Positions 5,151-63,580 of a stretch of 64,000 bases of DNA are shown here, piece after piece. Each line of letters begins with the position of its first letter. The stretch's first letter is position 1. The position numbers and the translations under genes are program-made. The DNA comes from Bacteroidaceae bacterium (GTDB taxonomy: Bacteria; Bacteroidota; Bacteroidia; Bacteroidales; Bacteroidaceae): assembly GCA_017615125.1 (NCBI GenBank), contig JAGAAS010000028.1, positions 52,244 through 116,243 on the forward strand, given 5' to 3'. Below the pieces are notes generated by a model. The model saw only the letters and a program-made list of their open reading frames with translations, did no database searches and was not told where the DNA came from.

Positions 5151-5180
5151 TTTCGTGCCAATTGGAGTAATTCGTGTTTT

Positions 5181-5305
5181 TTATTTTGTATTCCACTCGC
5201 TAATTCGTATCTTTAACGACATCCGTTGTTTTAGATAGGGGTCGCCTCGGAAGAAAAAATATACCGTTGTTTATTTTGTTCTTCTCTCGGCTCACCTTAT
5301 CTTTG
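5181..5305 (+). promoter_or_regulatory. Tandem promoter cassette (copy E1) upstream of the TPR regulator
   Basis: Two promoters stand in tandem: TTG 5186-5188 with TATCTTTA 5208-5215, and TTG 5276-5278 with TATCTTTG 5298-5305, both with 19-bp spacing. Each spacer carries a CTCG-type block (CACTCGCTAA and CTCTCGGCTC). About 120 bp is closely similar to the reverse complement of 22870-22995, including TTTTAGATAGG, TCGCCTCGGAAGAAAAAAT and TTTATTTTGTTCTTCTCTCG. Confidence 0.7.
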
Positions 5306-5329
5306 TAGCACTCAATGTTATCAAAGGCC

Positions 5330-15953: not shown

Positions 15954-16466
15954 TCAAGAACCGGCTTTAGAGATTTCTTTCAGAATCCTTTTTCGGATAG
16001 ATCTTGCGCCGGGAGACAAGGGTTCCTGCCCCATCATTTCCAGTACTGCCCTCAGTTCGGCAAGCAGCTCGGGATAGAATCGGCATTGTGCATAGGAGAG
16101 CTTGACAGCCAGCGAGCGCACGCCTACTGGAACGTTGGGGTCTCCTATCTGCACAAGGCAGAAGTCAAGGAAGTCCGTCCGAATGTCCTCCTCGCGGAAG
16201 GGCTGCTTTTCGAGCACCGTCATTATCAGCCGTCGCTTGGTAACGCTGTCCGTCTTCATCGCCTCGTCGATGAGTTCCTGCTGATAGCTACAAAGCGCCT
16301 GCATCTTCTCGGGAGGGAGATGCGTCATCACCCAAGCGGCATTGTCGGACACCCGCTTGTCGGGATGGAAAAGAAGCTGGAAAAGTTCTTCCACATCAAC
16401 CGTCAGCGCGAGGTTGTTGACTTCGCTCATGCCCAGACGAGCTCCAAGGATTTCTTCTTTGCTCAT
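15954..16466 (-). CDS. HEAT/ARM-repeat-like cytosolic protein, function unknown
   Basis: A 170-residue soluble protein with no signal peptide or membrane segment. It is almost entirely helical, with repeat-like pairs (VEELFQLLFHPDKRVSDNAA, QIGDPNVPVGVRSLAVKLSY, MGQEPLSPGARSIRKRILKE) that resemble HEAT repeats. Similar short orphan helical-repeat proteins occur in Bacteroidales, usually unannotated. The start is the first ATG (MSKEEILG); dispersed repeat copy A begins 4 nt upstream and may hold its promoter. No partner is suggested by the neighbours. Confidence 0.75.
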   Translation of the reverse strand: MSKEEILGARLGMSEVNNLALTVDVEELFQLLFHPDKRVSDNAAWVMTHLPPEKMQALCSYQQELIDEAMKTDSVTKRRLIMTVLEKQPFREEDIRTDFLDFCLVQIGDPNVPVGVRSLAVKLSYAQCRFYPELLAELRAVLEMMGQEPLSPGARSIRKRILKEISKAGS

Positions 16467-16469
16467 ATC

Positions 16470-16540
16470 ATTTTTTTTCTTTATTCATACGGCGAGATTC
16501 CTTCTCCAAAAAAAAATTTCCCTTCTTCATACGAAGAAAA
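16470..16540 (+). repeat. Dispersed intergenic repeat, copy A
   Basis: TTCATACGGCGAGAT at 16484-16498 is followed by a TCCTTCTCC block, an A-run, then TTTCCCTTCTTCATACG at 16517-16533. These are the shared building blocks of copies B, C and D. Copy A lacks the GTAGAA end of the 18-nt core. Confidence 0.6.
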
Positions 16541-22844: not shown

Positions 22845-22869
22845 TGTGTGGTTTTTGTTTTTCCGGCTT

Positions 22870-22995
22870 CAAAGATAGTGCGAGCCGAGAGAAGAACAAA
22901 ATAAACCCGTTTATTTTTTCTTCCGAGGCGAAGCCTATCTAAAACCAAAGGTCAAAGATAGTGCAAGGCGAGAGATAATGCAAATCTATTTGCGT
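22870..22995 (-). promoter_or_regulatory. Tandem promoter cassette (copy E2) upstream of the barrel/nuclease operon
   Basis: On the minus strand, TTG at 22897-22899 and TATCTTTG at 22870-22877 have 19-bp spacing with CTCTCGGCTC between them. A second similar unit with a TATCTTTG box lies about 80 nt upstream, its spacer containing CTCTCGCCTT. Roughly 120 bp closely matches the cassette at 5181-5305, including the GCCTCGGAAGAAAAAAT block. Confidence 0.7.
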
Positions 22996-23045
22996 ATATC
23001 CGTTGTTGAGGAAAAGTTCTTTTCCTGCAAAACTTTTTTCTTTGT

Positions 23046-23117
23046 CCAAAAAAATTTTTCCCTTCTTCATACGGCGAGATGTAGAAAGAAAAAATCTTTT
23101 TCCCTTCTCGAAAAAAA
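23046..23117 (+). repeat. Dispersed intergenic repeat, copy B
   Basis: Order of blocks: A-run, TTTTTCCCTTCTTC, core ATACGGCGAGATGTAGAA (23069-23086), AGAAAAAATC, TTTTTCCCTTCTCG, A-run. The core is identical in copies C and D and in argG (47881-47898). It lies between the divergent promoters of the barrel and acyltransferase genes. Confidence 0.8.
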
Positions 23118-23264
23118 GCACCTGTTTTTCCCCTTCCACACTTATCTCTGAGCGGGAAAGCCCAGGAAGGAATTCATTTGTACTTTTAACTCCTTGCTTT
23201 AGGTACTCGCGTTCGGGAGAAGAAAGAAATTATCGTTTTTCTTTCCTTTTCGCTCGCTTTATAG

Positions 23265-45633: not shown

Positions 45634-45670
45634 ACTGTTTTTTTTCTTTATCAATAGTTATTTTTTCTTT

Positions 45671-45776
45671 CTTCAAAAAAAATTATTCCTTCTCGAAAAA
45701 AATTTTTCCCTTCTTCATACGGCGAGATGTAGAACGGACGGAGCAGCGAAGCCAAAGAAAAAATCTTTTTCACTTG
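45671..45776 (+). repeat. Dispersed intergenic repeat, copy C (extended)
   Basis: A-runs, CTTCTCGAAAAAAA, TTTTTCCCTTCTTC, then core ATACGGCGAGATGTAGAA (45717-45734). Unlike copies B and D, the core is followed by CGGACGGAGCAGCGAAGCC before AAAGAAAAAATC. This extra piece resembles the argG sequence after the same core (GGGCTGGACGAGCGAGGATG then CCAAAG). It sits upstream of pta. Confidence 0.8.
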
Positions 45777-46786: not shown

Positions 46787-47896
46787 ATGGAACAGAAGAA
46801 AAAAGTAGTCGTGGCGTTCAGCGGAGGACTCGACACGTCGTTCACCGTCATGTACCTCACGAAGGAAAAAGGATATGAAGTGTATGCTGCCTGCGCCGAC
46901 ACGGGCGGATTTTCCGAGGAGCAGCTGAAAACCAACGAGGAGAACGCCTACCGCCTGGGCGCCGTAGCATACAAAACACTCGACGTCACACGCGAGTATT
47001 ACCAGAAGAGCCTTCGGTATATGGTCTATGGCAACGTGCTGCGCAACGGCACCTACCCTATCTCCGTCTCCTCGGAACGCATCTTCCAGGCTATGGCCAT
47101 TGCCCGCTACGCTAAGGAGATAGGCGCCGACGCCATAGCTCACGGCTCCACAGGTGCGGGAAACGATCAGGTACGCTTCGACATGACGTTCCTCGTTATG
47201 GCTCCAGGCATCGAAATCATCACCCTCACGCGCGATATGGCGCTGACAAGGAAATTCGAAACCGACTACCTGAACGAGCACGGCTTCCCTGCCGACTTCA
47301 AGAAACTGAAATACTCCTACAACGTGGGCCTTTGGGGCACCAGCATCTGCGGAGGAGAAATCCTCGATTCCACGCAGGGGCTGCCTGAGTCGGCCTACCT
47401 GAAACAGGTGGAGAAGCAGGGAACCGAGCAGATTGAGCTAACCTTCACTAACGGAGAGCTCACAGGCGTGAACGGCGAGACATTTACCGACGGCGTGAAG
47501 GCCATCCAGAAGGTGGAAAGCATTGCAGCCCCCTACGGCATAGGACGCGACATGCACGTGGGAGACACCATCATCGGCATCAAGGGGCGCGTAGGATTCG
47601 AAGCTGCTGCACCCATGCTCATCATCGCAGCACACAAGTTCCTCGAGAAGTTCACCCTCAGCAAGTGGCAGCAATACTGGAAAGACCAAGTGGCAAACTG
47701 GTACGGCATGTTCCTCCACGAGAGCCAGTACCTGGAACCCGTGATGCGTGACATCGAAGCCATGCTTGAGAGCAGTCAGCGCAACGTCACCGGCTCGGTA
47801 ACAATGGAGCTTCGTCCTTACACCTTCTCGCCCATCGGAGTATCGTCCGAGAACGATTTGGTAAAAACCAAGTTCGGTGAATACGGCGAGATGTAG
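46787..47896 (+). CDS. argG: Argininosuccinate synthase, ended early by an in-frame TAG
   Basis: Joins citrulline and aspartate using ATP to give argininosuccinate. The N terminus carries the P-loop-like KKVVVAFSGGLDTSFTVMYL, then AACADTGGFSEEQLKT, ISVSSERIFQAMAIARYAKE, AHGSTGAGNDQVRFDM, and SYNVGLWGTSICGGEILDST. The reading frame stops at TAG 47894-47896 after 369 residues (ending FGEYGEM). The next 37 codons continue in frame with ArgG-like sequence to TAA 48008-48010, giving about 407 residues, a normal family length. All catalytic regions precede the stop; the missing tail is the C-terminal helix-strand extension, which in ArgG generally takes part in tetramer contacts. Function may be kept, reduced, or restored by readthrough. 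Confidence 0.9.
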   Translation: MEQKKKVVVAFSGGLDTSFTVMYLTKEKGYEVYAACADTGGFSEEQLKTNEENAYRLGAVAYKTLDVTREYYQKSLRYMVYGNVLRNGTYPISVSSERIFQAMAIARYAKEIGADAIAHGSTGAGNDQVRFDMTFLVMAPGIEIITLTRDMALTRKFETDYLNEHGFPADFKKLKYSYNVGLWGTSICGGEILDSTQGLPESAYLKQVEKQGTEQIELTFTNGELTGVNGETFTDGVKAIQKVESIAAPYGIGRDMHVGDTIIGIKGRVGFEAAAPMLIIAAHKFLEKFTLSKWQQYWKDQVANWYGMFLHESQYLEPVMRDIEAMLESSQRNVTGSVTMELRPYTFSPIGVSSENDLVKTKFGEYGEM

Positions 47897-48010
47897 AAGG
47901 GCTGGACGAGCGAGGATGCCAAAGGATTCATCAAGGTTACTTCCACTCCCCTGCGCGTGTATTACGCCAACCACAAGGAGGAAGGCGAGAAAATCGAGAG
48001 CGAGCTGTAA
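47897..48010 (+). other. argG: In-frame continuation of argG beyond the TAG
   Basis: It reads KGWTSEDAKGFIKVTSTPLR then VYYANHKEEGEKIESEL and TAA, without frameshift or further stop, and has the codon use of argG. It is the expected C-terminal tail of a Bacteroidota ArgG. The lack of decay argues for a recent nonsense change, a sequence error, or readthrough. Confidence 0.8.
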
Positions 48011-48064: not shown

Positions 48065-49036
48065 ATGAAAGAACCAAAGATACGCGTAGGAATCATCGGC
48101 GGAGCGGGCTACACAGCAGGCGAGCTCCTTCGGCTGCTGGTACACCATCCTGCTGCCGAAATCGTCTTCGTGCACAGCACCAGCAACACAGGTGCTTTAG
48201 TAGCAAGTGTGCACGAAGGGCTGACGGGAGACACGAATCTATCCTTCTGCTCCGACTTCGACCTGAGCGCTGTGGATGTGCTGTTCCTCTGTCAGGGACA
48301 CGGGAAGAGCCGCGAGTTCTGGCAGACGCACACGCTTCCTTCCTCGCTGAAGGTCATCGACTTGGCGCAAGACTTCCGCGATGAATCCGACGGCTACGTC
48401 TACGGCTTGCCCGAGTGGCAGAAACAGAAGATTTGCTCCGCAACGCTCGTTGCCAATCCCGGCTGCTTTGCTACCGCCATCCAGCTGGCTCTCCTGCCGC
48501 TGGCGCAAGGGAAGCTGCTCACGGGCGACGTTCACGTCACAGCTGTCACAGGCTCCACGGGTGCCGGCGTCAAGCCCTCGCCTTCCACGCACTTCAGCTG
48601 GCGCAACGACAACATTTCGGTCTACAAGGCCTTCGAGCATCAGCACCTCATCGAGATAAGGCGCAATATCGGCATCCTTCAAGGCAGCACTCCCGACATC
48701 AACTTCATCCCCATGCGGGGAGACTTCGCGCGGGGCATCTTTGCAGCCGTCTACACCGACTGCGCCCTCAGCGAAGAGGAGGCAAACGCGCTCTACAAGA
48801 GCTACTACGCCGATGCCGCCTTCACGCACGTCACCGACAGCACCCTTGACCTCAAGCAGGTGACGAACACCAACAAGGCGCTGCTCCACGTGGAGAAGCA
48901 CGGCAACAAGCTGCTCATCTCCTCCGTCATCGACAACCTGCTGAAAGGGGCAAGCGGGCAAGCCGTGCAGAACATGAACCTCATGTTCGGCCTTGAGGAA
49001 GACACAGGGCTGCGGCTCAAGGGGAACGCCTTCTGA
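48065..49036 (+). CDS. argC: N-acyl-gamma-glutamyl-phosphate reductase
   Basis: A 323-residue NADPH-dependent reductase of the third arginine step. The Rossmann start is RVGIIGGAGYTAGELLRLLV, and the catalytic cysteine is in VANPGCFATAIQLALLPL (Cys134). GSTGAGVKPSPSTHFSWRND and FIPMRGDFARGIFAAVYTD follow, then the C-terminal LLISSVIDNLLKGASGQAVQ NADP-binding helix. The length fits the short type of ArgC. It lies 54 nt after the natural argG end and 35 nt before argD. In this organism the acyl group is probably succinyl. Confidence 0.95.
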   Translation: MKEPKIRVGIIGGAGYTAGELLRLLVHHPAAEIVFVHSTSNTGALVASVHEGLTGDTNLSFCSDFDLSAVDVLFLCQGHGKSREFWQTHTLPSSLKVIDLAQDFRDESDGYVYGLPEWQKQKICSATLVANPGCFATAIQLALLPLAQGKLLTGDVHVTAVTGSTGAGVKPSPSTHFSWRNDNISVYKAFEHQHLIEIRRNIGILQGSTPDINFIPMRGDFARGIFAAVYTDCALSEEEANALYKSYYADAAFTHVTDSTLDLKQVTNTNKALLHVEKHGNKLLISSVIDNLLKGASGQAVQNMNLMFGLEEDTGLRLKGNAF

Positions 49037-49071: not shown

Positions 49072-50193
49072 ATGGAACTATTCGACGTTTACTCACTTTT
49101 CGATGTCACTCCCGTCAAGGGCAAAGGATGCCAGATATGGGACGAAAACGGGCAGCAGTACCTCGACCTCTACGGGGGGCACGCCGTTATCTCCGTCGGG
49201 CATTGTCATCCGCACTATATCGATGCTCTCACGCAGCAGCTCAACCAGATAGGCTTCTACAGCAACAGCGTAAAGAATCCCCTCCAGAAGGCGCTGGCAC
49301 ATCGGCTCGGAGCTCTCTCCGGGTACGACGACTATTCGCTCTTCCTCGACAACTCGGGTGCCGAGTCGAACGAGAATGCTATGAAGCTCGCTTCCTTCCA
49401 CACGGGAAAAGACCGCATCGTTGCCTTCCGCGGGAGCTTTCACGGGCGTACGTCGGGAGCTGTCTCCGTCACCGACAACCCTAAGATTGTCTCCCCCTTC
49501 AATGCCGGGCACAAGGTTACGTTCTGCGACTTGGAAGATGCGGAAGCTGTTGAGAAAGCCCTTCAGCAGGGTGATGTCGCAGGAGTCATCATCGAGGGCA
49601 TACAGGGATGCGGAGGCATCCATATCCCTTCGGCAGCCTTCATGCAGGCGCTGGAGCAGCTGTGCCGTACATACGGCGCTGTACTCATCCTCGATGAAGT
49701 GCAGAGCGGATACGGGCGCAGCGGAAAGTTCTTTGCCCATCAGTGGGCAGGAATCCGTCCCGACATCATCACCGTTGCCAAAGGCATCGCCAACGGATTT
49801 CCCTGCGGCGCGATGCTTGTGTCGCCCACATTTAAGGCAACGAAGGGGATGCTCGGCACAACCTTCGGCGGAAACTACCTCGCTATGTCGGCAGCCCTTG
49901 CGGTGCTCGACATCATCGAGGAGGAGCACCTCGTCGACAACGCACTCCGCGTAGGCAACCACATCCTCGAGCACCTGCCAGTCTCCCCACGCATCAAGGA
50001 GGTGCGCGGAAGAGGGCTGATGATAGGCATCGAGTTCAACGAGGATGTTGCCCCGCTCCGCAGGAAGCTGCTCTTCGAGAAGCACATCTTTACTGGTGTC
50101 GCAGGCAACAGCGTCATCCGTCTGCTGGCTCCTCTGTGCCTCAGCATCGACGAAGCAGACGTGTTCCTGAAGGCGCTTGAGGACATCCTCTGA
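49072..50193 (+). CDS. argD: N-acylornithine aminotransferase
   Basis: A 373-residue PLP-dependent class III aminotransferase. Motifs are GHCHPHYIDALTQQLNQIGF near the start, FLDNSGAESNENAMKLASFH, FRGSFHGRTSGAVSVTD, LILDEVQSGYGRSGKFFAH and the Schiff-base lysine in ITVAKGIANGFPCGAM (Lys237). It transfers the amino group from glutamate to N-acylglutamate semialdehyde to give N-acylornithine. It is 35 nt after argC and is followed by repeat copy D, after which argF' has its own -7 box. Confidence 0.95.
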   Translation: MELFDVYSLFDVTPVKGKGCQIWDENGQQYLDLYGGHAVISVGHCHPHYIDALTQQLNQIGFYSNSVKNPLQKALAHRLGALSGYDDYSLFLDNSGAESNENAMKLASFHTGKDRIVAFRGSFHGRTSGAVSVTDNPKIVSPFNAGHKVTFCDLEDAEAVEKALQQGDVAGVIIEGIQGCGGIHIPSAAFMQALEQLCRTYGAVLILDEVQSGYGRSGKFFAHQWAGIRPDIITVAKGIANGFPCGAMLVSPTFKATKGMLGTTFGGNYLAMSAALAVLDIIEEEHLVDNALRVGNHILEHLPVSPRIKEVRGRGLMIGIEFNEDVAPLRRKLLFEKHIFTGVAGNSVIRLLAPLCLSIDEADVFLKALEDIL

Positions 50194-50205
50194 CGGCATC
50201 GGATT

Positions 50206-50280
50206 TTTCTTTCTTCATAAGAAATTTTCCCTTCTTCATACGGCGAGATGTAGAAAGAAAAAAAATTTTTCCCTTCTCGA
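50206..50280 (+). repeat. Dispersed intergenic repeat, copy D
   Basis: TTTTTCTTTCTTCATAAG, AAATTTTCCCTTCTTC, core ATACGGCGAGATGTAGAA (50238-50255), AGAAAAAAAATTTTTC, CCTTCTCGA. The core is identical to copies B and C and to argG 47881-47898. It lies inside the arginine cluster, between argD and argF'. Confidence 0.8.
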
Positions 50281-50301
50281 TAATTTTTTATTTGTTCTCC
50301 A

Positions 50302-50332: not shown

Positions 50333-51295
50333 ATGAAAAAGTTTCTTCACGTGCAAGACATAGGCCCGCTCTCCTCCGCGCTGCAGGAAGCGGCAGAGAT
50401 AAAGAAAGACCGCTTCGCCCACGACACGCTGGGCAAGAACAAGACGTTGCTGATGATCTTCTTCAACAACTCGCTCCGCACGCGTCTCAGCACGCAGAAG
50501 GCAGCTATGAACCTGGGCATGAACGTCATCGTGCTCGACGTGAACGCTGGCGCCTGGAAGCTGGAGACGGAGCGCGGCGTCATCATGGACGGCGACAAGA
50601 GCGAGCATCTCCTCGAAGCCATCCCCGTGATGGGCAGCTACTGCGACATCATCGGCATCCGCTCGTTTGCGGGGCTCACCGACAGGAGCTACGACTACGA
50701 AGAGACGGTTTTCAACCAGTTTGTGCAGTACAGCGGGCGTCCCGTCTTCGCGATGGAGACAGCTACCGTGCATCCCCTGCAGGCATTTGCCGACTTGATT
50801 ACCATCGAGGAGCACAAGACGAAAGCCCGTCCCAAGGTGGTGCTCACGTGGGCTCCTCACCCCAAGGCTCTGCCGCAGGCGGTGCCCAACTCCTTCGCTG
50901 AGTGGATGAATGCTGCCGACGTCGACCTTGTCATCACCCATCCCGAAGGCTACGAGCTCGACCCACAGTTCGTGGGCGACGCTCGTGTGGAATACAACCA
51001 GATGAAAGCCCTCGAGGGCGCCGACTTTGTGTATGCCAAGAACTGGAGCTGCCCAGGCGTCACGAACCCCTCCGACTACGGCAAGGTGCTGAGCAAAGAG
51101 ATGTCGTGGACCATCGATGCTGCCCACATGGCGGTAACCGACAACGGCAAGTTCATGCACTGCCTGCCCGTCAGGAGAGGAATGATTGTCACCGACGATG
51201 TCATCGAGGCACCCACGTCGCTCGTCATCCCCGAAGCTGCCAACCGCGAGATTTCGGCGCAGGTTGTCATCAAACGGATACTGGAAACACTCTGA
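50333..51295 (+). CDS. argF': N-succinylornithine carbamoyltransferase (ArgF')
   Basis: 320 residues. Carbamoyl-phosphate site MIFFNNSLRTRLSTQKAAMN, ETATVHPLQAFADLITIEEH, and the C-terminal MHCLPVRRGMIVTDDVIEAP. VLTWAPHPKALPQAVPNSFA and NREISAQVVIKRILETL match the Bacteroides-type enzyme that carbamoylates N-succinylornithine rather than ornithine. At residue 90, in MDGDKSEHLLEAIPVM, there is Ser; from memory the B. fragilis enzyme has Pro there and N-acetylornithine enzymes have Glu, and this site sets acyl specificity. A small residue agrees with succinyl use. ATG 50333 is chosen because the upstream frame runs through repeat DNA and the -7 box. Confidence 0.93.
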   Translation: MKKFLHVQDIGPLSSALQEAAEIKKDRFAHDTLGKNKTLLMIFFNNSLRTRLSTQKAAMNLGMNVIVLDVNAGAWKLETERGVIMDGDKSEHLLEAIPVMGSYCDIIGIRSFAGLTDRSYDYEETVFNQFVQYSGRPVFAMETATVHPLQAFADLITIEEHKTKARPKVVLTWAPHPKALPQAVPNSFAEWMNAADVDLVITHPEGYELDPQFVGDARVEYNQMKALEGADFVYAKNWSCPGVTNPSDYGKVLSKEMSWTIDAAHMAVTDNGKFMHCLPVRRGMIVTDDVIEAPTSLVIPEAANREISAQVVIKRILETL

Positions 51296-51326: not shown

Positions 51327-52097
51327 ATGGAAAAGACCTTCCTCAACATCATCAAAGTCGGCGGTGCCGTCGTTGAAGACAGCACCTCGCTTGACGCGCT
51401 GCTCGATGCCTTCGCCCTGCTGCCGGGACGGAAAGTCCTCGTGCACGGAGGCGGAAGGGCTGCCACGCAGATTGCCTCGCAGATGGGTATCGAAAGCACT
51501 ATGATAGAAGGACGGCGCGTTACCGACAGCGATATGCTGCGCGTGGTGACGATGGTCTATGGAGGACTGGTGAACAAGAACATCGTTGCCAGCCTGCAGG
51601 CTCGCGGCATCAACGCGCTGGGACTCACGGGAGCAGATCTCGGATATATGCTCAGCGAGAAGCGCCCCGTCGGCAAGGTCGACTACGGCTTCGTGGGAGA
51701 TGTGAAGAAGACCGACGCCAGCGCCTTAGCAAAACTTATCGACGACAACATCGTGCCTGTGCTTGCTCCGCTCACGCACGACGGGCAGGGACACTTGCTC
51801 AACACCAATGCCGACACTATCGCGGCAGAAGCAGCCAAAGCGCTGGCACAGTTGTTCGACGTCACGCTCACCTTCTGTTTCGAGAAGAAAGGTGTGCTGC
51901 TCGATGCCGATGACGAAGAGAGCGTCGTCCCCATCCTGCGCCGAAATGATTTTGAAGGATACGTTGCCCAGGGCATCATCTCGGGCGGCATGATTCCCAA
52001 AATCGACAACGCCTTCCAAGCCATCCGGAGCGGTGTAAAGAGAGTCATCATCACCCGCGCCGACAACATGCAGGGCGGAACGCAAATCATCGAATAA
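51327..52097 (+). CDS. argB: N-acylglutamate kinase
   Basis: A 256-residue amino-acid-kinase-fold enzyme that phosphorylates N-acylglutamate with ATP. Family features are FLNIIKVGGAVVEDS with the substrate/ATP lysine, KVLVHGGGRAATQIASQMGI, and the IISGGMIPKIDNAFQAIRSG nucleotide segment near the end. The glycine loops and the KTDASALAKLIDDNIVPVLA region are intact. The gene is 31 nt after argF'. The likely substrate in this pathway is N-succinylglutamate, but acetyl cannot be excluded from this gene alone. Confidence 0.94.
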   Translation: MEKTFLNIIKVGGAVVEDSTSLDALLDAFALLPGRKVLVHGGGRAATQIASQMGIESTMIEGRRVTDSDMLRVVTMVYGGLVNKNIVASLQARGINALGLTGADLGYMLSEKRPVGKVDYGFVGDVKKTDASALAKLIDDNIVPVLAPLTHDGQGHLLNTNADTIAAEAAKALAQLFDVTLTFCFEKKGVLLDADDEESVVPILRRNDFEGYVAQGIISGGMIPKIDNAFQAIRSGVKRVIITRADNMQGGTQIIE

Positions 52098-52144: not shown

Positions 52145-53182
52145 ATGATTGAACTGCTCAAGAAACTCATCTCCACCCCCTCGTTCAGCCGCGAGGAAGG
52201 CGCCGCTGCCGACATCCTGCAGCAGTGGATGAAGCAGCGCGGGCTGGACGTGCAGCGCAAGGGACACAACCTCTGGGTGGCGCAGCCCGACGAGGGCGAC
52301 GGACGCCCCACACTGCTGCTCAATGCCCACATCGACACCGTCCGCCCCGCGTCAGGCTACTCGCGCGACCCGTTCGTTCCCTCCGTGGAAGGCGACAGGC
52401 TATACGGGCTGGGCAGCAACGACGACGGAGGCTCGGTGGTAGCCCTCCTTGACACCTACCTGCGGCTCACCCGGAAGCCCCAGCCCTACCGCCTCATCTA
52501 CTCGGCAACCGCTGAGGAGGAGATCTGCGGCAAGGGAGGCATCGAGAGCATCCTCGACGACCTCGGCCCCGTCGCCCTCGGCATCATTGGCGAGCCTACC
52601 GGCATGCAGATGGCGGTAGCCGAACGCGGGCTGCTGGTGCTCGACTGCACGGCACACGGCATCAGCGGGCATGCGGCACGCAACGAGGGCGTGAACGCGC
52701 TCTACAAGGCGATGGACGACATCCAGTGGTTCCGCAATTACCGTTTCGGGCACACATCCGATTTTCTCGGCGAGGTGAAGATGACCGTCACCATGATAGA
52801 GTGCGGCACGCAGCACAACGTGGTACCCGACACATGCAGCTTCGTCGTCGACGTACGCCCCAACGGCATGTACACCAACCAGGAGATCGTCGATACCATC
52901 CGGCAGCACGTGACGTGCGACGTCGTACCCCGCTCCCTGCGCCACAACAGCTCACACATCGCCACCACCCATCCCGTCGTGCAGCGCGCGCTGAGCCTGG
53001 GCCTCACGCCCTTCGGCTCACCCACCACCAGCAACCAGACCGTCCTCCCCCACATCCCCACCGTCAAGATAGGGCCGGGCGACTCTGCCCGCTCACACTC
53101 CGCCGACGAGTACATCTGCCTGTCTGAGATAAGCCAAGCGGTAGAGACCTATGTCGCCCTTCTCGACCAACTCATCCTTTGA
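52145..53182 (+). CDS. argE: M20-family N-acyl amino acid deacylase (ArgE type)
   Basis: A 345-residue zinc metallopeptidase-like deacylase. Metal-binding motifs are LLNAHIDTVRPASGYSRDPF (His and Asp), YGLGSNDDGGSVVALLDTYL, ATAEEEICGKGGIES (catalytic Glu pair) and the final ARSHSADEYICLSEI (His). GHAARNEGVNALYKA is the dimerisation-domain His motif. In a pathway with an N-acylornithine carbamoyltransferase the deacylase must act on N-acylcitrulline; that substrate is inferred from context. It is 47 nt after argB and 27 nt before argH. Confidence 0.92.
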   Translation: MIELLKKLISTPSFSREEGAAADILQQWMKQRGLDVQRKGHNLWVAQPDEGDGRPTLLLNAHIDTVRPASGYSRDPFVPSVEGDRLYGLGSNDDGGSVVALLDTYLRLTRKPQPYRLIYSATAEEEICGKGGIESILDDLGPVALGIIGEPTGMQMAVAERGLLVLDCTAHGISGHAARNEGVNALYKAMDDIQWFRNYRFGHTSDFLGEVKMTVTMIECGTQHNVVPDTCSFVVDVRPNGMYTNQEIVDTIRQHVTCDVVPRSLRHNSSHIATTHPVVQRALSLGLTPFGSPTTSNQTVLPHIPTVKIGPGDSARSHSADEYICLSEISQAVETYVALLDQLIL

Positions 53183-53209: not shown

Positions 53210-54505
53210 ATGAAACTTTGGGATAAAGGCTACGAGCCCGACAAACTGATTGAGACCTTCACCGTAGGCAACGACCGCGAACTCGACCTCCAGCTGGCAC
53301 GCTACGATGTCGAGGGATCTATGGCTCACATACGTATGCTCGAGAGCATCGGGCTCCTCACCTCCGACGAACTGAAAGTGCTGCTCGAAGCCCTTGAGGA
53401 CATCCACGCGGCCATCCTGCGGGGTGAGTTCGTCATCGAAGAGGGCGTCGAGGATGTCCACTCCGAGGTAGAGCAGCTGCTCACGCAGCGCCTGGGCGAC
53501 ATTGGGAAGAAGATCCATTCGGGACGCTCGCGCAACGATCAGGTGCTCGTCGACCTGAAGCTCTTCTTCCGCGACAAACTCCGCCAGACGGCAGCCTCCG
53601 TGGGCACTCTCTTTGAGCGCCTGCAGGCCCTCAGCGAGCAGTACAAGGAAGTGCTCATGCCCGGCTACACCCATATGCAGATTGCTATGCCCTCCTCCTT
53701 CGGCCTGTGGTTCGGCGCCTATGCCGAGACGCTCGTCGACGACCTGCGCCTGCTGGCCTCCGCCTACGACATCGCCAACCAGAACCCCCTGGGCAGCGCT
53801 GCCGGCTACGGCTCGTCGTTTCCCCTCGACCGTACGATGACCACACGCCTGCTCCACTTCGGCAACCTTCACTACAACGTCGTGGCTGCTCAGATGAGCC
53901 GCGGCAAGACCGAGCGTGCCATCGCTGCCGCCCTCGCTGCCGTCAGCGCCACCCTCGCGCGCTTCGCTATGGACATCTGCCTGTTCAACAGCCAGAACTT
54001 TGGATTCATCTCGTTCCCCGACGAGCTCACCACCGGCTCCAGCATCATGCCACACAAGAAGAACCCCGACGTCTTCGAGATCATGCGCGCCAAGTGCAAC
54101 CGCCTGCAGAGCCTGCCTGGCGAGGTAGCCCTCGTCACCTCCAACCTGCCACTCGGCTACCAACGCGACTTCCAGCTCCTCAAAGACATCCTCTTCCCCG
54201 CCTTCGGCGTGATGGATGAGTGCATCGGGATGTGCGACTTCATGCTTCAGCACATCCGTGTCAACCGCGACATCCTCTCCGACCCGAAGTACGACTACCT
54301 GTTCACCGTCGAGGACGTCAACCGCCTGGTGCTGCAGGGCGTCCCCTTCCGCGAAGCCTACAGGCAGGTGGGCATGCAGGTGCAGAACCACACCTACCAG
54401 CCCACGCGCACCGTCAGCCACACCCACGAGGGCAGCATCGGCAACCTCTGCACCGCGCAGATCAGGGAGAAGTACGAAGCCGTCGCCAAGCACTTCCAGG
54501 AGTAA
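53210..54505 (+). CDS. argH: Argininosuccinate lyase
   Basis: A 431-residue enzyme of the fumarase/aspartase superfamily that splits argininosuccinate to arginine and fumarate. It begins MKLWDKGYEPDKLIETFTVG, with EDVHSEVEQLLTQRLGDIGK, IHSGRSRNDQVLVDLKLF, MPGYTHMQIAMPSSFGLW and the signature loop TGSSIMPHKKNPDVFEIMRA carrying the catalytic Ser. It is slightly shorter than the common 450-460 residues. It is the last gene of the cluster, followed by a terminator 34 nt later. Confidence 0.96.
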   Translation: MKLWDKGYEPDKLIETFTVGNDRELDLQLARYDVEGSMAHIRMLESIGLLTSDELKVLLEALEDIHAAILRGEFVIEEGVEDVHSEVEQLLTQRLGDIGKKIHSGRSRNDQVLVDLKLFFRDKLRQTAASVGTLFERLQALSEQYKEVLMPGYTHMQIAMPSSFGLWFGAYAETLVDDLRLLASAYDIANQNPLGSAAGYGSSFPLDRTMTTRLLHFGNLHYNVVAAQMSRGKTERAIAAALAAVSATLARFAMDICLFNSQNFGFISFPDELTTGSSIMPHKKNPDVFEIMRAKCNRLQSLPGEVALVTSNLPLGYQRDFQLLKDILFPAFGVMDECIGMCDFMLQHIRVNRDILSDPKYDYLFTVEDVNRLVLQGVPFREAYRQVGMQVQNHTYQPTRTVSHTHEGSIGNLCTAQIREKYEAVAKHFQE

Positions 54506-56113: not shown

Positions 56114-59100
56114 TTATTGTCCGAGGATGATGCTCACGAGGGCTGTGACATCAGCCACGTTCACATCTGTGTCGCCATTCACGTTGGCAGCAGCATTTAC
56201 TGGCATATTGCCGAGAATCATGCTTACCAGCATAGTGACGTCTGCCACATTCACGGTACCGTCGCCGTTCACATCACCCTTCAGGAAGGCAGGCTTCTCC
56301 GAGAAGTAGCCTGGATTGGCTGTACCACCGTCAATGTGGGCATAGCTTTCGTCATTGTGTTCTCCGCTATACATTGTACCTGCACCGCCCTTCAGTTTTT
56401 CATCGGCGCCGAATATCAAAGAACCAATCACCTGTTCTCCCGCGGCGTTCTGCAATGTCCATCCCTCGCTTGCATAGATGGTAGTCAGGTTGGTGCATTG
56501 GTTGAACATCTGGGTAATCCATTTGAGTTTCCCTGTGGTGAAGCTGCTGATATCGATCGTCTCCAGGCTTGAGCATCCTTCGAACATCGAAATCATATTC
56601 TCCACTTCACTCGTATTAAGGTACTCCATACCGATTATCTCGGAAAGATTGGTCATTCCGTAGAACCACATGTATGTGGTATTCGGGCGCGCATTAACAA
56701 ACGACGGGTCAAACACCACTTTCTCTACCTCTAAGTACCATATCCAGCCCGGGTTATTCATATCCTTGTTCAGTTCAAATATTGTCCCTGAGTGAGAATT
56801 GTAATTATCTAGGCCGTCGCAGTAGAAGGTAAGCGTCATGGTATCGTAGTCATAGACAGCATAGGATTTCATACTCAGGTATCCAGGATTGTCGACACCG
56901 CCGTCCACGTGAGCATAGGTATCGTTGATGTGGTTCGGATCATAAACCGTTCCTGCGCCACCCACGAGGCTGGTGCATCCAGAGAACATTCTATTGTCGA
57001 GCCACATCTGCGAGGCTGTGCTCCAGCCTGGACCTATCCAAATGGTGGTGAGGGCACTGCAGGAGGTAAACATCGTTATCATATCCGTCACGTTCTCCGT
57101 GTTCCATCCTGAGATGTTGAGTTCTTCCAGACCGGTGCACTCTTGGAACATCGAACGCATGCTCGTCACATTCTCCGTATTCCAACTGCTCAGAATGAGT
57201 CGTGTCAGGCTGGTGCATCTCATAAACGCAGAACTCATGTCGGTGACGGCAGAGGTATTGAGTATGTTTACGTTGTTGACACTTCTGAGTTGAGTCATAC
57301 CAGCAAACCAACAATACATCGTCGTGGGGCGTGCTTCAATGAACGAGTAGTCGAACGTTACATACCTGACTTGTTCACAAGTACCATCTGTTTGCCAGCC
57401 CGGATTCTCTGTTCCTTTGTTCAGTTCGTACACGATTCCCCTGCGGGTGGCCTTCATGGTGTCGTAGTAGAAGGTCAAACTGCCATCCGTGCCAAAGAAT
57501 ACGGCATACATTTGTGGCTTGATTGTCAGGTAGCCCGGGTTCTCCGTTCCGCCGTCAACGTGAGCATAGCTGCCGTCAACATGGCTGGCATCGAACGCTG
57601 TTCCTGCGCCACCTACGAGGCTGGTGCAGTCGGTGAACATATCGTTGAAGCCAGCGGTAATAGTCCACTTGTCACTCACGTAAATGGTGGTGAGGTTTGT
57701 GCAGCCCTCAAACATCCTTGCTGCAGAATTCGTGTTGGCCGTGCTCCAGTTCTCCAGGTCGATTACAGTCATCGATGAGCAGCCGTAGAACACCTGTTGC
57801 ATTTCTTCCACGTTTTCGGTATTCCATGCACTCACATCCACGGTCTCCAGCTGTGAGCAATTGTTGAACAGTCCGTACATGTCTTCCACTCTTGATACAT
57901 CAAAGCCGCTCACGTCGAGGCTTTGCAGTTGCGAGCATTCGCTGAACATATACATCATGTTTGTCACCTGACTGGTGTTGAGGTATTCAATACCCTCCAC
58001 TTCGGTAATACTCATGCCGAAGAACCAGTACGAGAGGCATGTAGGACGTGCATCGGCAAACGACGGCTCGAATACCACACGGGTGGCAACGTAATTGGCA
58101 ACACCCCACCACGTAGGAAGTTCTTCGGTACCGAGGTCGTATTTGATTCCTGGGCGCGACGAGCGTTGATCATCGTAACAGAAAGTGAGAGTGTTTGTCT
58201 CCGAGTTCAGACAGGCGTAGGCTTGTCTCAGTGTCAGGTAGCCCGGATTGGACGTTCCACCATCCACGCGGGCATAGGACTTGTCTACATGGCTTGAACT
58301 GAACGTTGTCCCAGCGCCTCCCACAAGGCTGGTGCAGCCATAGAACATATTATCATCGCTTGTGACGGAAGAGGTGATCCAGCCGTCACCGGCATAGATG
58401 GTCCTCAATGAGGTACATTGTAAGAACATTCCTTCCATATTCGTGACAAGCTGTGTGTCCCAGCCACTTAGGTCGAGAGTCGTCAGGCTGCTGCAATCGC
58501 TGAATGCCATCTGCATCGATCTAATGTTCTGCGTGTTCCAGTTGTTCAACTTGAGGCTCGTCAAACTGCTGCAGCCAAAGAACATCTGCACGATGTCCTC
58601 CACATTGTTTGTATCTAAGCCGCTCAGGTCGAGGGTCGTCAGGCTGCTGCACTGTCCGAACATTCCGCCGGTCCTTTCGAGTACCGGGGTGTTCCATTCG
58701 TTGATGCCCTTGATGGTGGTGAGGCTACTGCAGCCGAAGAACATAGAAGTTGCATTTGTCACATGACTCATATCGAAGTTCGACACGTCGATGCTGGTGA
58801 GGCTGCTGCAATATCCAAACATACCTCCTAAATTCATAGCGAAGCTGGTGTCGAAGCCGCTCACGTCGAGGCTCTCCAATTTACTGCACGAATAGAACAT
58901 ATTACTCATTGACATCACCTCGCTGGTGTTGAGGTATTTCAGTCCGCTGATGTCCTCCAGATTAACCATATCCAAGAACCAGTAATCTGTTCGTTGTGGA
59001 CGAGCCTGAGCAAACGACGGGTCGAACACTGCATGGTGGATATTGTAATACCAATCATGCCATTCAGGATAATCGCTGCCCGAGGTCTGTGAGTGAGGCA

Positions 59101-62100
59101 AGAGTGCAACGCCTGTGCGCGTAGAGCGCTGTCCGTCGAAGTAGAATGTGAGCGTGTTGTCGTTAGAAGTATAGACGGCATATATCTCGGCTCCCGTCAG
59201 GTAGCCTACGAAGCCGTCAACGCCGTCGATGAAGGCATATTCCTTGTCGGTATGACTCGCGTCATATGTCGTGCCGTTGCCGCCCACAAGACTGCTACAC
59301 GAATCGAACATGCGATCGGAGTCGGCTACGCCACTCACGTCCCAACCCTCGCCAACAAAGATGGTTCTGAGATTGTTGCTGTTGAAGAACATGCAGTTCA
59401 TGTCGGTCACATTGTGCGTGTCGAAGTGGCTCAGGTCAAGAGATGTGAGACTGCTGCAGATTCCGAACATGCAGCTCATGTTCGTCACTTCGCTGGTGTT
59501 GAGGTTCTCAATGCCGTTGATGGTGAGCAGGTTGCTGAGGGTATAGAACCAGTTGTCGGTGTTAAAGGGGCGGACCTTGGCGAACGAGGGGTCGAAGGTC
59601 ACCGTCTCTATGTATGAAGAATAGCCAATCCAGTTTGGATAATCATGTTCCTTGTTCAGGTCAAACTTAAGGCCCGAGCGCGAATCCCTCTTGTCATCTG
59701 CGTAGAAGGTGAGCATTTTGTCGCTAGAGTTAAAGACGGCATAGGGTTTGTTCGAGAAGACGCCAGGATTGCTGGTGCCGCCGTCGACATGGGCAAAGAT
59801 GTAGTCGTCAAAGAAAAAGTCCTCCTGAGTGTATGTATAGTGTGAGCCCTTTTCTCCCACCAACTTGGTGTCGTTGGTAAACATCATCATCTTGTCGTAA
59901 CAGTTGCTCAAGTCCCAGTCGTTAGCATAAATGGTGGTAAGCGAAGGGCAGTTGGCAAAGATACCCATTGCTCGCTCGAGGCTGTCGGTAGTAAAGCCAG
60001 TGACGTCAATGACAACTAGCGAAGAACAGCCGTCGAACATGCTCGACATGTCTCTTACTCTACAGGTATTGAAGTGGCTCAGATCTATACTCTTCAAGGA
60101 GGTGCATCGGGCGAACATGGAGGACATTTCCATTACGTTTTCCGTTTCAAAGCCACTCAGATCGATGCTTGTCATAGCTTTACAACTATTGAACATCCTA
60201 TCCATATCCTTCACTGAACTGGTTTTGAAATTGTCTCCAAATATAATGTTCGTGAGGTTCTCGCATTGGAAAAACATGCTCTCCATGCTGGTCACATTAG
60301 CTGTACTGAAGTAGGACAAATCAAGGGTCCTCAGCTGTTTGCAATTGCCGAACATGCTATACATATACTTTGCCTTCTGTGTGTCGAAGGTGCTCACGTC
60401 AAGGCTCTGCAGGTTCTCGCATCCATAGAACATCTGGGAAAACTCCTCCACGTTGGATGTGTTCAGATGACTTACATCAAGACTTGTCAGGCTCTTGCAC
60501 CAACTAAACATATTGGACATCTTCATCACATTGGATGTGTTGAAATTCGTTACATCAAGGCTCGTCAAGCTTTCGCAACCACGGAACAGGTCCATCATGT
60601 TGGTACAGTTGCCAGTATCCCAATTCGTCACATCAAGACTGGTCAATGAGGAGCAGTACTGAAATGTGCCGTAGAGTTCCAGCATGTTAGAGACATCGAA
60701 ACCGCTTACATCGAGCGATGTGAGCGACGAGCAACCGCTGAAAGTACAAACCAGGCTTTGCAGGCCTGAGGTGGTGAAGTGGCTCACGTCGAGGCTTGTC
60801 AGGCTGTTGCAGCCGTCAAACATGTAGTCCATCCCATTGATGCCCAGATGACTGGTGTCGAAGTGGCTCACGTCGAGGCTTGTCAGGTTAGAGCAGCCTA
60901 AAAACATGGCATTCATGCTAACTGTCTTCTGGGTGTCGAAGCCAGAGACGTCGAGTGCTGTCAGCTCTTGGCAACTGGCGAACAAGCCGTGCATGTTCGT
61001 CACATTATGGGTGTCCCATCCGCTCACGTCGAGCGACTCTACAACGTAGCAGCTGTTGAACAAATCGCCCATGTTCGTCACGCTGCTGGTATCCCAGTTA
61101 CCCACGTTGAGGTATTTCACTTTCTGGCAGTTCTGGAACATCGAGCCCATGTCTGTAACCTTTCTGGTGTCGAAGCCACTCACGTCGAGGTAGATGAGAT
61201 TATTACATCCTTCGAACATCCCGCTCATATTGGTCACCTCGCTGGTGTTAAGGTACTGTATGCCGTTGATGGCCTCTATGTTTTCCATATAGGAGAACCA
61301 ACAGTAGGTGCTTGTGGGACGTGCGTTGGCAAACGACGGGTCGAACGTCACGTTCGACGCGCCGGTAAGCCATTCAGGGCGGTTGTATCCTGTGTTCAGG
61401 TTGTAGCTGACGCCCGGGCGGGAAGAGCGCTTCGCGTCGTAGTAGAACGTGAGCGCTTCGCTGTCGTAAGCGACATAAGCTTCGCGTGCCGAGGCATTGG
61501 TGAGGTAGCCCGGATTGGATGTTCCACCGTCCACGCGGGCATAGGCCTTGTCGGTGTAGCTTGGGTTGTATGCCGTCCCGGCACCTCCCACAAGGTTGGT
61601 GCAGCCGGAGAACATTTCCGAATGTGAATTCAGGTGGCTCATATCCCAGCTGGAACCTACATAGATGGTCTCCAAAGCTCCGCAACCACGGAACATACTT
61701 GAAGTATCTACAACTTTAGGGGTATTGAAGCTGCTAAGGTCGAGGCTCGTGAGAGCGCTGCAGCCGTAAAACATATATCCTAAGGCCAACACTTTGCTGG
61801 TATCGAAGTTGCTAAGGTCGATACTGGTGAGACTCGAGCATTGGTAAAACATCATCGCCATATGGTCCACCTCGCTGGTGTTGAGATATTGGATTCCGTT
61901 GACGTCAGTCAGGTTCGTCATCCCGCGGAACCAATTGCGCATGCTTTGGGGACGATAGTCGGCAAACGACGGGTCGAATAACACGTGGGAGACAGACGCT
62001 CTGAACGACTGGTTGTACCCGAGAGGATTGGAGGCGGTTTCATCAATGAGGATTGTTTCGCCCTGCTGCAGCGATCGGTTGATATCGTAGTAGAAGGTAA

Positions 62101-63580
62101 AGCCGCCATTGCCGGAGGTGTAGACAGCATAGGCTTCGGGCCTCATTGTCAGGTATCCGGGTTGGCCGTTTCTGTCGATGCGGGCGTAGGCCTTACCGAG
62201 ATATGCGGTGTTGTACGCTGTCCCGTTGCCGCCCACGAGGTTGGTGCACCCGGAGAACATGCTGACCGAGACCGTCACGGCCGCCGTGCTCCAGTTGGTA
62301 TTGACGTAGATGGTGGTGAGTTTAGGGCAATCATTAAACATCACTCCCATTCTTGTTACCTTCGCTGTGTTCCACCCCGTCAGGTCAAGGCTGGTAAGAT
62401 TATGGCAACTCTGGAACATCCCATCCATATTGGTTACGTTCGATGTGTCCCAGCTGCTCAGGTCGAGGGTTGTTAATCCGTAGCAGTTCTGGAACATGAA
62501 GCGCATGTCGGTGACGGCAGAGGTGTTCAGGTTGCCAATGCCGTTAATGGTAGAAAGACTACTGAGGCTTCCAAACCACATGTATGCAGTCGTGGGACGC
62601 GCATTGGCAAACGATTCATCGAAAACAACTTTTTGGATGTTATTGCCTAGACCTTTCCATTCAGGATCTCTGGCGCTCGTGTTCAGATTATAGATGGTGC
62701 CTGTTTTGGCGTTTGCATTCCCGTCGTCGTAGAAGGTAAGGGTCTTGTTGGAAGAGGTGTACACGGTGTAGGGGACGCGCGTGAAATAGCCGGGATTGCT
62801 GGTACCGCCGTCCACATGGGCATAGTCGATTCCTACGTAATCTTGATTATAGGTAGTGCCTTCCCCGCCCACCAATTGTGCGCAAGAGGCAAACACCGAC
62901 CCCCCTTGTGTTACTTTTGCTGTAGACCAGCCGTGTCCGACATAGATGGTAGTGAGGTTGGTGCAACGGGCGAACATATTCGACATATTCGTCACCTCAC
63001 TTGTATTGAATGTGCGAATGTCGAGGGTCGTCAGACCAGAGCAACCGTAGAACATCGAATACATGACCGTCACCTTCTCTGTGTTGAAGTTACTCAGATC
63101 AAGACTTGTCAGGCCAGAGAGACTGTGAAACATAGCCTGCATGTTGGTAACATTGCGGGTGTCGAAGGTCGTCACGTCGAGGCTCGTCAATTTGCTGCAG
63201 TTGGAGAACATTATATACATGCTCGTCACCTGGCTGGTGTTGAGTTTGTCGAGATTCGTGATGCTGGTCAGGTTTTTCATACCGCGAAACCAACTTCTTG
63301 TACTTGTGGGACGTGCCGAAGAAAAAGAGTCGTCGAACACCACAGAGGTGACGTTGGCATTTATGCTGTTGTACCATCCAGGGTCATCGGTACCCGTGTT
63401 CAGGTCATAGACGGCTTCGTTCGGGTTGCTTTCGTGCGTGCCGCGATTACTGTCATAGTAGAACGTCAGCGTGGTGTTGCTTGACGTGTACACAGCATAG
63501 GCTTCTGCTGCCGACATCCTGGCTGCGCCTAGTAGGATGAGGGCGAGCAGGAAGAGGATTCTTTGAATAAACTTTTTCAT
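56114..63580 (-). CDS. Giant BspA-like surface protein: nine DUF285-type repeat modules and dockerin-like C terminus
   Basis: 2488 residues. The signal peptide KKFIQRILFLLALILLGAA is cut near residue 24. Nine modules each open with a strand block like YAVYTSSNTTLTFYYD, carry 24-25-residue repeats such as LNTSEVTNMSGMFEGCNNLI, and close with AHVDGGTSNPGYLT-type sequence. Approximate module starts are residues 27, 269, 480, 697, 1277, 1464, 1785, 2022 and 2237. The fourth module (697-1277) is about two and a half times longer than the others. The end (from about 2430) has two dockerin-like loops, GDVNGDGTVNVADVTMLVSM and ANVNGDTDVNVADVTALVSI. BspA-type repeats form beta-solenoids that bind host or matrix proteins; the ligand here is unknown. 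It has its own strong promoter and is monocistronic. Confidence 0.92.
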   Translation of the reverse strand: MKKFIQRILFLLALILLGAARMSAAEAYAVYTSSNTTLTFYYDSNRGTHESNPNEAVYDLNTGTDDPGWYNSINANVTSVVFDDSFSSARPTSTRSWFRGMKNLTSITNLDKLNTSQVTSMYIMFSNCSKLTSLDVTTFDTRNVTNMQAMFHSLSGLTSLDLSNFNTEKVTVMYSMFYGCSGLTTLDIRTFNTSEVTNMSNMFARCTNLTTIYVGHGWSTAKVTQGGSVFASCAQLVGGEGTTYNQDYVGIDYAHVDGGTSNPGYFTRVPYTVYTSSNKTLTFYDDGNANAKTGTIYNLNTSARDPEWKGLGNNIQKVVFDESFANARPTTAYMWFGSLSSLSTINGIGNLNTSAVTDMRFMFQNCYGLTTLDLSSWDTSNVTNMDGMFQSCHNLTSLDLTGWNTAKVTRMGVMFNDCPKLTTIYVNTNWSTAAVTVSVSMFSGCTNLVGGNGTAYNTAYLGKAYARIDRNGQPGYLTMRPEAYAVYTSGNGGFTFYYDINRSLQQGETILIDETASNPLGYNQSFRASVSHVLFDPSFADYRPQSMRNWFRGMTNLTDVNGIQYLNTSEVDHMAMMFYQCSSLTSIDLSNFDTSKVLALGYMFYGCSALTSLDLSSFNTPKVVDTSSMFRGCGALETIYVGSSWDMSHLNSHSEMFSGCTNLVGGAGTAYNPSYTDKAYARVDGGTSNPGYLTNASAREAYVAYDSEALTFYYDAKRSSRPGVSYNLNTGYNRPEWLTGASNVTFDPSFANARPTSTYCWFSYMENIEAINGIQYLNTSEVTNMSGMFEGCNNLIYLDVSGFDTRKVTDMGSMFQNCQKVKYLNVGNWDTSSVTNMGDLFNSCYVVESLDVSGWDTHNVTNMHGLFASCQELTALDVSGFDTQKTVSMNAMFLGCSNLTSLDVSHFDTSHLGINGMDYMFDGCNSLTSLDVSHFTTSGLQSLVCTFSGCSSLTSLDVSGFDVSNMLELYGTFQYCSSLTSLDVTNWDTGNCTNMMDLFRGCESLTSLDVTNFNTSNVMKMSNMFSWCKSLTSLDVSHLNTSNVEEFSQMFYGCENLQSLDVSTFDTQKAKYMYSMFGNCKQLRTLDLSYFSTANVTSMESMFFQCENLTNIIFGDNFKTSSVKDMDRMFNSCKAMTSIDLSGFETENVMEMSSMFARCTSLKSIDLSHFNTCRVRDMSSMFDGCSSLVVIDVTGFTTDSLERAMGIFANCPSLTTIYANDWDLSNCYDKMMMFTNDTKLVGEKGSHYTYTQEDFFFDDYIFAHVDGGTSNPGVFSNKPYAVFNSSDKMLTFYADDKRDSRSGLKFDLNKEHDYPNWIGYSSYIETVTFDPSFAKVRPFNTDNWFYTLSNLLTINGIENLNTSEVTNMSCMFGICSSLTSLDLSHFDTHNVTDMNCMFFNSNNLRTIFVGEGWDVSGVADSDRMFDSCSSLVGGNGTTYDASHTDKEYAFIDGVDGFVGYLTGAEIYAVYTSNDNTLTFYFDGQRSTRTGVALLPHSQTSGSDYPEWHDWYYNIHHAVFDPSFAQARPQRTDYWFLDMVNLEDISGLKYLNTSEVMSMSNMFYSCSKLESLDVSGFDTSFAMNLGGMFGYCSSLTSIDVSNFDMSHVTNATSMFFGCSSLTTIKGINEWNTPVLERTGGMFGQCSSLTTLDLSGLDTNNVEDIVQMFFGCSSLTSLKLNNWNTQNIRSMQMAFSDCSSLTTLDLSGWDTQLVTNMEGMFLQCTSLRTIYAGDGWITSSVTSDDNMFYGCTSLVGGAGTTFSSSHVDKSYARVDGGTSNPGYLTLRQAYACLNSETNTLTFCYDDQRSSRPGIKYDLGTEELPTWWGVANYVATRVVFEPSFADARPTCLSYWFFGMSITEVEGIEYLNTSQVTNMMYMFSECSQLQSLDVSGFDVSRVEDMYGLFNNCSQLETVDVSAWNTENVEEMQQVFYGCSSMTVIDLENWSTANTNSAARMFEGCTNLTTIYVSDKWTITAGFNDMFTDCTSLVGGAGTAFDASHVDGSYAHVDGGTENPGYLTIKPQMYAVFFGTDGSLTFYYDTMKATRRGIVYELNKGTENPGWQTDGTCEQVRYVTFDYSFIEARPTTMYCWFAGMTQLRSVNNVNILNTSAVTDMSSAFMRCTSLTRLILSSWNTENVTSMRSMFQECTGLEELNISGWNTENVTDMITMFTSCSALTTIWIGPGWSTASQMWLDNRMFSGCTSLVGGAGTVYDPNHINDTYAHVDGGVDNPGYLSMKSYAVYDYDTMTLTFYCDGLDNYNSHSGTIFELNKDMNNPGWIWYLEVEKVVFDPSFVNARPNTTYMWFYGMTNLSEIIGMEYLNTSEVENMISMFEGCSSLETIDISSFTTGKLKWITQMFNQCTNLTTIYASEGWTLQNAAGEQVIGSLIFGADEKLKGGAGTMYSGEHNDESYAHIDGGTANPGYFSEKPAFLKGDVNGDGTVNVADVTMLVSMILGNMPVNAAANVNGDTDVNVADVTALVSIILGQ

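Follow-up and report, generated by a model that had tools for sequence, protein, structure and literature searches.

The argG gene in the window (the whole stretch of DNA analyzed here, 64,000 nucleotides) is cut by an in-frame TAG at 47894..47896 on the forward strand, and, owing to the T at position 47894, 18-20 bp of argG coincide exactly with the core of a dispersed palindromic repeat, a match that formed no part of the original prediction. Overall, the TAG is probably a recent stop allele, repeat-linked, or an assembly error. More specifically, it seems fairly likely that this is an ordinary one-letter stop in an otherwise intact gene, and that its letter is best explained by the dispersed repeat.

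As it stands, argG (46787..47896, + strand) comprises 369 codons and the TAG, and its product matches the Pfam models PF00764 and PF20979. The frame reads FGEYGEM, then TAG, and continues through 37 intact tail codons (47897-48007) to the natural TAA (48008-48010), so that the severed segment spans 47897..48010 on the same strand; the frame, the coordinates and the tail were all confirmed as originally described. The tail is a genuine ArgG C terminus: all 109 related argG loci align across the TAG codon, and 105 of them align from residue 6 or earlier to at least residue 396, the aligned piece being free of stops. These loci are 30 from relatives, minus the one from the window's own assembly, and 80 from named genomes; some probably represent the same genome twice. 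The assembly that contains the window (G000) measures 3.03 Mb in 107 contigs and is 87.2% complete with 4.0% contamination. It holds a single full ArgG match, and a second argG copy was therefore rejected. Among named matches, the closest belong to uncultured Bacteroidales of herbivore guts, and we therefore take the organism to be a gut member of the Bacteroidales.

At the position of the TAG codon, the 109 related loci encode Gln in 85 cases (74 CAG and 11 CAA), Ala in 20, Asn in three, and Ser in one, and none has a stop. All four nearest relatives (G003, G005, G012, and G016), whose ArgG proteins are 91-93% identical, have CAG, which is a single letter step from TAG. A wider survey of 399 genomes of the family yielded an ArgG match in 348, and among the matches listed a stop was flagged in 12 genomes: G000 and 11 others. 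These 11 and two other flagged relatives were checked, and in all 13 the stop proved to be the natural end of the protein at residues 399-402; internal argG stops in relatives were thus rejected, and the TAG is unique within the sampled genomes. A scan of viral contigs for the argG site, which sought sister strains, gave no matches. ArgG went unmatched in 51 of the 399 genomes, including 28 of the 207 that reach 90% completeness with no more than 5% contamination; these absences reflect repeated loss or gaps, and part of them may be missing sequence. Within the genus, only the four relatives have an argG that is 91-93% identical, most congeners being at about 80% (e.g., G001, G007, and G013). 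The argG of G024, which belongs to another genus, is 85% identical and thus nearer than that of most congeners, which hints at argG replacement by transfer.

Decay is absent on both sides of the TAG. In comparisons of this argG with the four relatives, dN/dS is 0.032-0.075 for the upstream part and 0.015-0.045 for the tail (27 tail codons compared), and synonymous sites in the tail evolve like those elsewhere in the gene. Among the relatives themselves the upstream part gives 0-0.025, so that the window's argG is slightly higher, and amino-acid differences number 24-29 in comparisons with the window's protein versus 0-23 among relatives. The protein has two private changes at columns that are at least 95% conserved, which equals the median across 63 sequences (range 0-19). 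Judged by these substitution patterns, the upstream part and the tail both look selected, and the rest of the gene is undecayed, as in a nonsense allele. Since there is no decay around the TAG, the change is either recent or not real. The earlier suggestion of a recent nonsense change or an error is thus borne out by a stop that is unique against 109 loci, one step from CAG, and followed by an undecayed tail.

The arginine genes downstream of argG, all on the forward strand, have open frames, as the original prediction held. They are argC (48065..49036; TIGR01850 over its cut-off), an argD-type transaminase (49072..50193; best match TIGR00707, below the cut-off), an N-acetylornithine-carbamoyltransferase-type enzyme (50333..51295; NF003384 at 287.3 bits with a cut-off of 288), argB (51327..52097; TIGR00761 over its cut-off), an argE/dapE-type deacylase (52145..53182; best match TIGR01910, below the cut-off), and argH (53210..54505; TIGR00838 over its cut-off). 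We examined 23 window genes (24.5-56 kb), of which 21 had counterparts in the compared relatives; in the 20 compared besides argG, no internal stop was found in the window copy. Judged by position, the further stops in this comparison appear to belong to query ORFs that are antisense or out of frame, or to the start or end of a gene. Two side observations concern the surroundings. A 2488-codon ORF occupies 56114-63580 on the reverse strand, and for the enclosing 44-64 kb there are 141 matches in G005, many of which fall in the ORF part; from these matches we read the region as putatively repeat-rich or multi-copy. In G005, the frame of ackA (acetate kinase region; L224, C41) is interrupted, its two halves being separated by stops and a frame change.

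ArgG loses its last 38 residues to the TAG, position 370 included. Six positions within the lost tail (W373, K379, G380, F381, K383, and Y393) are invariant in all 63 aligned sequences. Without the tail, the protein still scores 125.9 bits against PF00764 and 92.7 bits against PF20979 (cut-offs 27), and the PF20979 profile is matched to position 190 of 219, as opposed to 219 of 219 if the TAG is read through. The NCBIfam model TIGR00032 (cut-off 268.2 bits) gives 246.8 bits read through and 237.1 as it stands, and the best NCBIfam ArgG model, NF001770, reaches 279 against a cut-off of 334. A structure model of the read-through protein shows the argininosuccinate synthetase fold, and the top 30 Foldseek matches are argininosuccinate synthetases or the related ArtA; its mean pLDDT is 82.2, and the tail is weak (residues 370-373 and 379-384 below 50), so that the model adds little on the C-terminal arm beyond the fold match. 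In the human enzyme, residues 372-412 are described as the C-terminal oligomerization helix, within which Arg398 is sensitive, and the loop at residues 375-377 as part of the neighbor's active site (PMC13289927). The phmmer match (2-394 to 3-405) gives an offset that places the cut near human residue 380; the loop would be kept and the arm lost. Because the tail is conserved and matches the oligomerization arm, the truncated ArgG is probably inactive or weak. It is correspondingly improbable that the 369-residue protein works without its tail. The catalytic domains are complete, and for the related nitrile synthetase ArtA the alignment to the model leaves out the last part, which is a weak counterpoint; however, the tail is present in every aligned relative, with its six invariant positions, and the human counterpart of the lost part serves in oligomerization. 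The proposal that the stop still leaves a working enzyme therefore found no support.

In this organism UAG most probably ends translation, and the TAG in argG would do so whichever origin its letter has. Of the 22 other window genes checked, five have TAG as their stop, a use of TAG that had been remarked before. The assembly contains release factor RF1 (prfA), whose gene is divided exactly by a contig break: contig C17 ends with model residues 119-357, and C85 begins with 1-121. Both pieces are open frames, the GGQ and PAT motifs are present, and the RF1 gene itself ends in TAG. As an aside, four relatives end this gene in TAA and have PVT in place of PAT. ARAGORN named all 46 tRNA genes above the Rfam cut-off, and none of the 46 has a CUA anticodon, in an assembly that is 87% complete, so that a suppressor gene could sit in the missing part. 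Both Gln tRNAs (UUG and CUG) are normal, and tRNA-Gln(CUG) is identical to that of G012 across 76 aligned bases; a mutant tRNA-Gln(CUG) was on this account rejected as the suppressor. Folding of the RNA 3' of the TAG is weaker than that of shuffled sequences (z = +1.1), the region has no Rfam match, and a stem-loop readthrough signal there was rejected on the first of these results. None of the 20 other compared window genes has an in-frame TAG.

These results bear on two alternatives in which the TAG is translated. The one in which this genome decodes TAG as an amino acid, through code 15 or a local suppressor, would fit the Gln of the relatives, and TAG is read as Gln in phages of gut Bacteroidetes (PMC9523058). 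However, neither a CUA tRNA nor an avoidance of TAG as terminator with many in-frame TAGs was found among the genes checked, and RF1 is present with its own gene terminated by TAG. Genome-wide reassignment, which the original prediction had already called unlikely, and a suppressor tRNA were thus rejected, and we regard this alternative as largely refuted. The other, in which readthrough of the TAG (as Gln, Tyr, or Lys) is frequent enough for a supply of ArgG, is very unlikely. It draws on the intact tail, on the misreading of TAG as Tyr, Gln, and Lys in E. coli (PMC11126739), and on a mutant yeast tRNA-Gln(CUG) that reads UAG (PMC3664417). However, TAG reporters in E. coli average only about 0.03% readthrough at 37 C (PMC11126739), the window's assembly offers neither a CUA tRNA among the 46 found nor an altered tRNA-Gln(CUG), the stop is not conserved (0 of 109 loci) as in programmed readthrough, no stimulating structure follows it, and synonymous evolution in the tail resembles that in the rest of argG. 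The earlier suggestion of a TAG that is read through is accordingly left without support. Some low basal readthrough occurs in any cell. Trace amounts of full-length ArgG could arise in this way, the main product being the protein without its last 38 residues.

The sequence ATACGGCGAGATGTAGAA is an 18-mer shared by argG and the repeat core. It occurs four times in the window, each time on the forward strand: in argG (47881-47898), in intergenic repeat copies at 45717..45734 (2164 bp before the argG site) and 50238..50255 (2357 bp after it), and in a third window copy at 23069..23086. Shuffled windows contain it 0.04 times on average with up to three mismatches allowed. Across the whole assembly it is found 57 times, argG included, and the reversed pattern is found nowhere. 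With any letter allowed at position 14, there are 66 places; the nine further ones have A at the argG letter, and none has C. In most copies the core reads TTCTTTCTTC-ATACGGCGAGATGTAGAA-AGAAAAAA, an imperfect palindrome. Sixty-five of the 66 places sit in the repeat (one copy being cut by a contig end), and argG alone is without its flanks. When up to two mismatches were allowed, there were 100 hits, and 99 distinct places among them were compared. In five places besides argG the usual left flank is missing and the right one is present; at no place but argG are both missing. The longest identity of argG to a T-bearing repeat copy is 20 bp (47879..47898, + strand; the copy in the C36:22856 region, L317), the last 18 bp of this stretch occurring at 56 other places in the assembly; at a length of 21, the T-bearing copies still differ from argG by one letter besides the site. 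A further 23-bp match to the repeat library lies at L303:480 (overlapping loci are counted twice in this search), and a guessed 21-letter repeat pattern gave no matches. The repeat is AT-rich and intergenic, with window copies at 45650-45740, 50195-50295, 16460-16540, and 23025-23125, and its family is shared with G005. The window also contains another dispersed element, roughly 105-135 bp long, at 22860-23010 and 5170-5318, in opposite orientations; it has many matches in G003, G005, G012, and G016, and those in G005 are partly in tandem, about 84 bp apart.

The match between argG and the repeat is unusual among the coding bases of the window. We built a repeat library from 62 copies, with 1,280 18-mers present in two or more of them; the 51,360 coding bases of the window contain one exact repeat 18-mer, which is the one in argG, and only three of the 154,080 possible single changes would create such an 18-mer, all in the same argG stretch. 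Five of the 109 related argG genes have an 18-mer one letter off the core. That of G012 has the exact core with C at the letter in question, and those of G003 and G016 have the C and one more difference. In these three genomes a search with one mismatch finds the motif nowhere except in argG, and therefore the resemblance between argG and the repeat is older than the repeat and independent of it. G005 has the repeat (39 hits), with an unchanged argG two letters away, and in G001, G007, G009, and G013 the 18-mer was not found with one mismatch allowed. A stop can arise in the G012 argG by 155 single changes, and one of these gives the repeat match; a random argG stop would thus land on the match roughly once in 155 times, and less often if any gene could be hit. 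The match was spotted post hoc, which lowers the weight of this estimate.

The repeat is the most likely source of the T. An argG stretch that is one letter off the repeat core in relatives would have become identical to it, presumably by a change from C to T, and the features of a templated change are seen: the changed letter is that of the potential donor, and it is flanked by identity (18-20 bp, with 56 other exact places). Two routes, which we rate about equal within this account, could have led there. On the one hand, a repeat copy may have served as the template for short-tract copying in the cell, with 15 bp of identity before the letter and four after it; possible donors are the two copies at distances of 2.2 and 2.4 kb, which share the orientation of the argG stretch, or others anywhere. 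On the other hand, read correction, assembly, or polishing may have pulled a thinly covered argG toward the letter of a many-copy repeat. Several copies lie less than 400 bp from contig ends (e.g., C63, C64, C68, C70, C73, and C79), and therefore the repeat disturbed the assembly. Several points stand against the account as a whole. The match is post hoc and the identity is 18-20 bp only, a C-to-T transition needs no donor, and the dN/dS of this argG is slightly above that of the relatives' pairs (0-0.025). Identity of 18-20 bp is short for homologous recombination or gene conversion. G012 differs from the motif solely at the changed letter, so a converted tract of several letters could not show. 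Titles in the literature on short-tract conversion in bacteria offered nothing on point. Taken by itself, the proposal that repeat copies donate short tracts into coding DNA at such identity, and so knocked out argG, is tentative and may well be wrong.

Two explanations compete with the repeat-linked stop or overlap with it. If the TAG were purely an artifact of assembly or read correction, the organism would have a sense codon here, and this is a possibility that we hold to be less than probable. The assembly is a draft (107 contigs, 87% complete, 4% contamination) with repeat copies near contig ends, the letter is that of the many-copy version, and the remaining arginine genes are intact. 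However, the shared stretch is at most 20 bp and the 21-mers with T differ by one further letter, so that a standard k=21 corrector would not obviously confuse them; moreover, the 20 other genes compared show no further stop or frameshift, which counts against an artifact and led us to reject overall poor sequence quality as the cause. The alternative of an independent C-to-T transition at the Gln codon, with a coincidental repeat identity and a recent loss-of-function allele in an arginine-rich gut, we consider rather doubtful. A single transition suffices, and argG appears dispensable in the family, given the genomes without a match (some of these misses may be gaps). Within hosts, 28 stops were reported among 325 nonsynonymous de novo mutations of B. 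fragilis (PMC11379459). Given such frequent within-host stops and the loss of argG in the family, a null argG in an arginine-rich gut is plausible. However, this explanation demands a costly coincidence, one stop change in 155 (counted on the G012 argG) in a stretch unlike the other coding bases of the window, and no further internal argG stop was seen among the matches listed of the 399-genome survey. A search by title for literature on argG stops, or on stops in metagenome assemblies, found nothing on point.

If the stop is real, argG would be a clear-cut natural example of how one letter matching a resident repeat can break a biosynthetic gene, and the donor hypothesis could be tested; were the donor reading true, such repeats would recurrently generate loss-of-function alleles, perhaps reversible ones, in genes that resemble them. 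If it is an artifact, it shows that assembled genes can acquire stops from dispersed repeats, a point of importance for every search for recoding or pseudogenes in metagenome assemblies. Either way, one candidate for TAG recoding is removed.

Four known systems come closest. The protein shares its fold, its domains (PF00764 and PF20979), its single copy, and its place in an arginine cluster with argininosuccinate synthetase ArgG (PDB 1kh1, 2nz2, and 1k92), whereas its tail is removed by the TAG, which precedes the C-terminal arm, and it falls below the NCBIfam ArgG cut-offs even when read through. The TAG-to-Gln recoding of crAss-like phages (code 15) likewise places TAG where relatives have Gln, but the present genome has RF1, has no suppressor tRNA among those found, and is affected at a single site. 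The repeat resembles the REP-type dispersed intergenic palindromes described in PMC3733652 in being a short imperfect palindrome with dozens of intergenic copies in a mosaic arrangement; it has been assigned to no named consensus or family, and the likeness is one of the repeat sequence itself. Like the within-host nonsense alleles of B. fragilis reported in PMC11379459, the argG allele is a single-letter stop in a long-conserved gene with undecayed surroundings; unlike them, it is known from one assembly, and its letter completes a match to a dispersed repeat.
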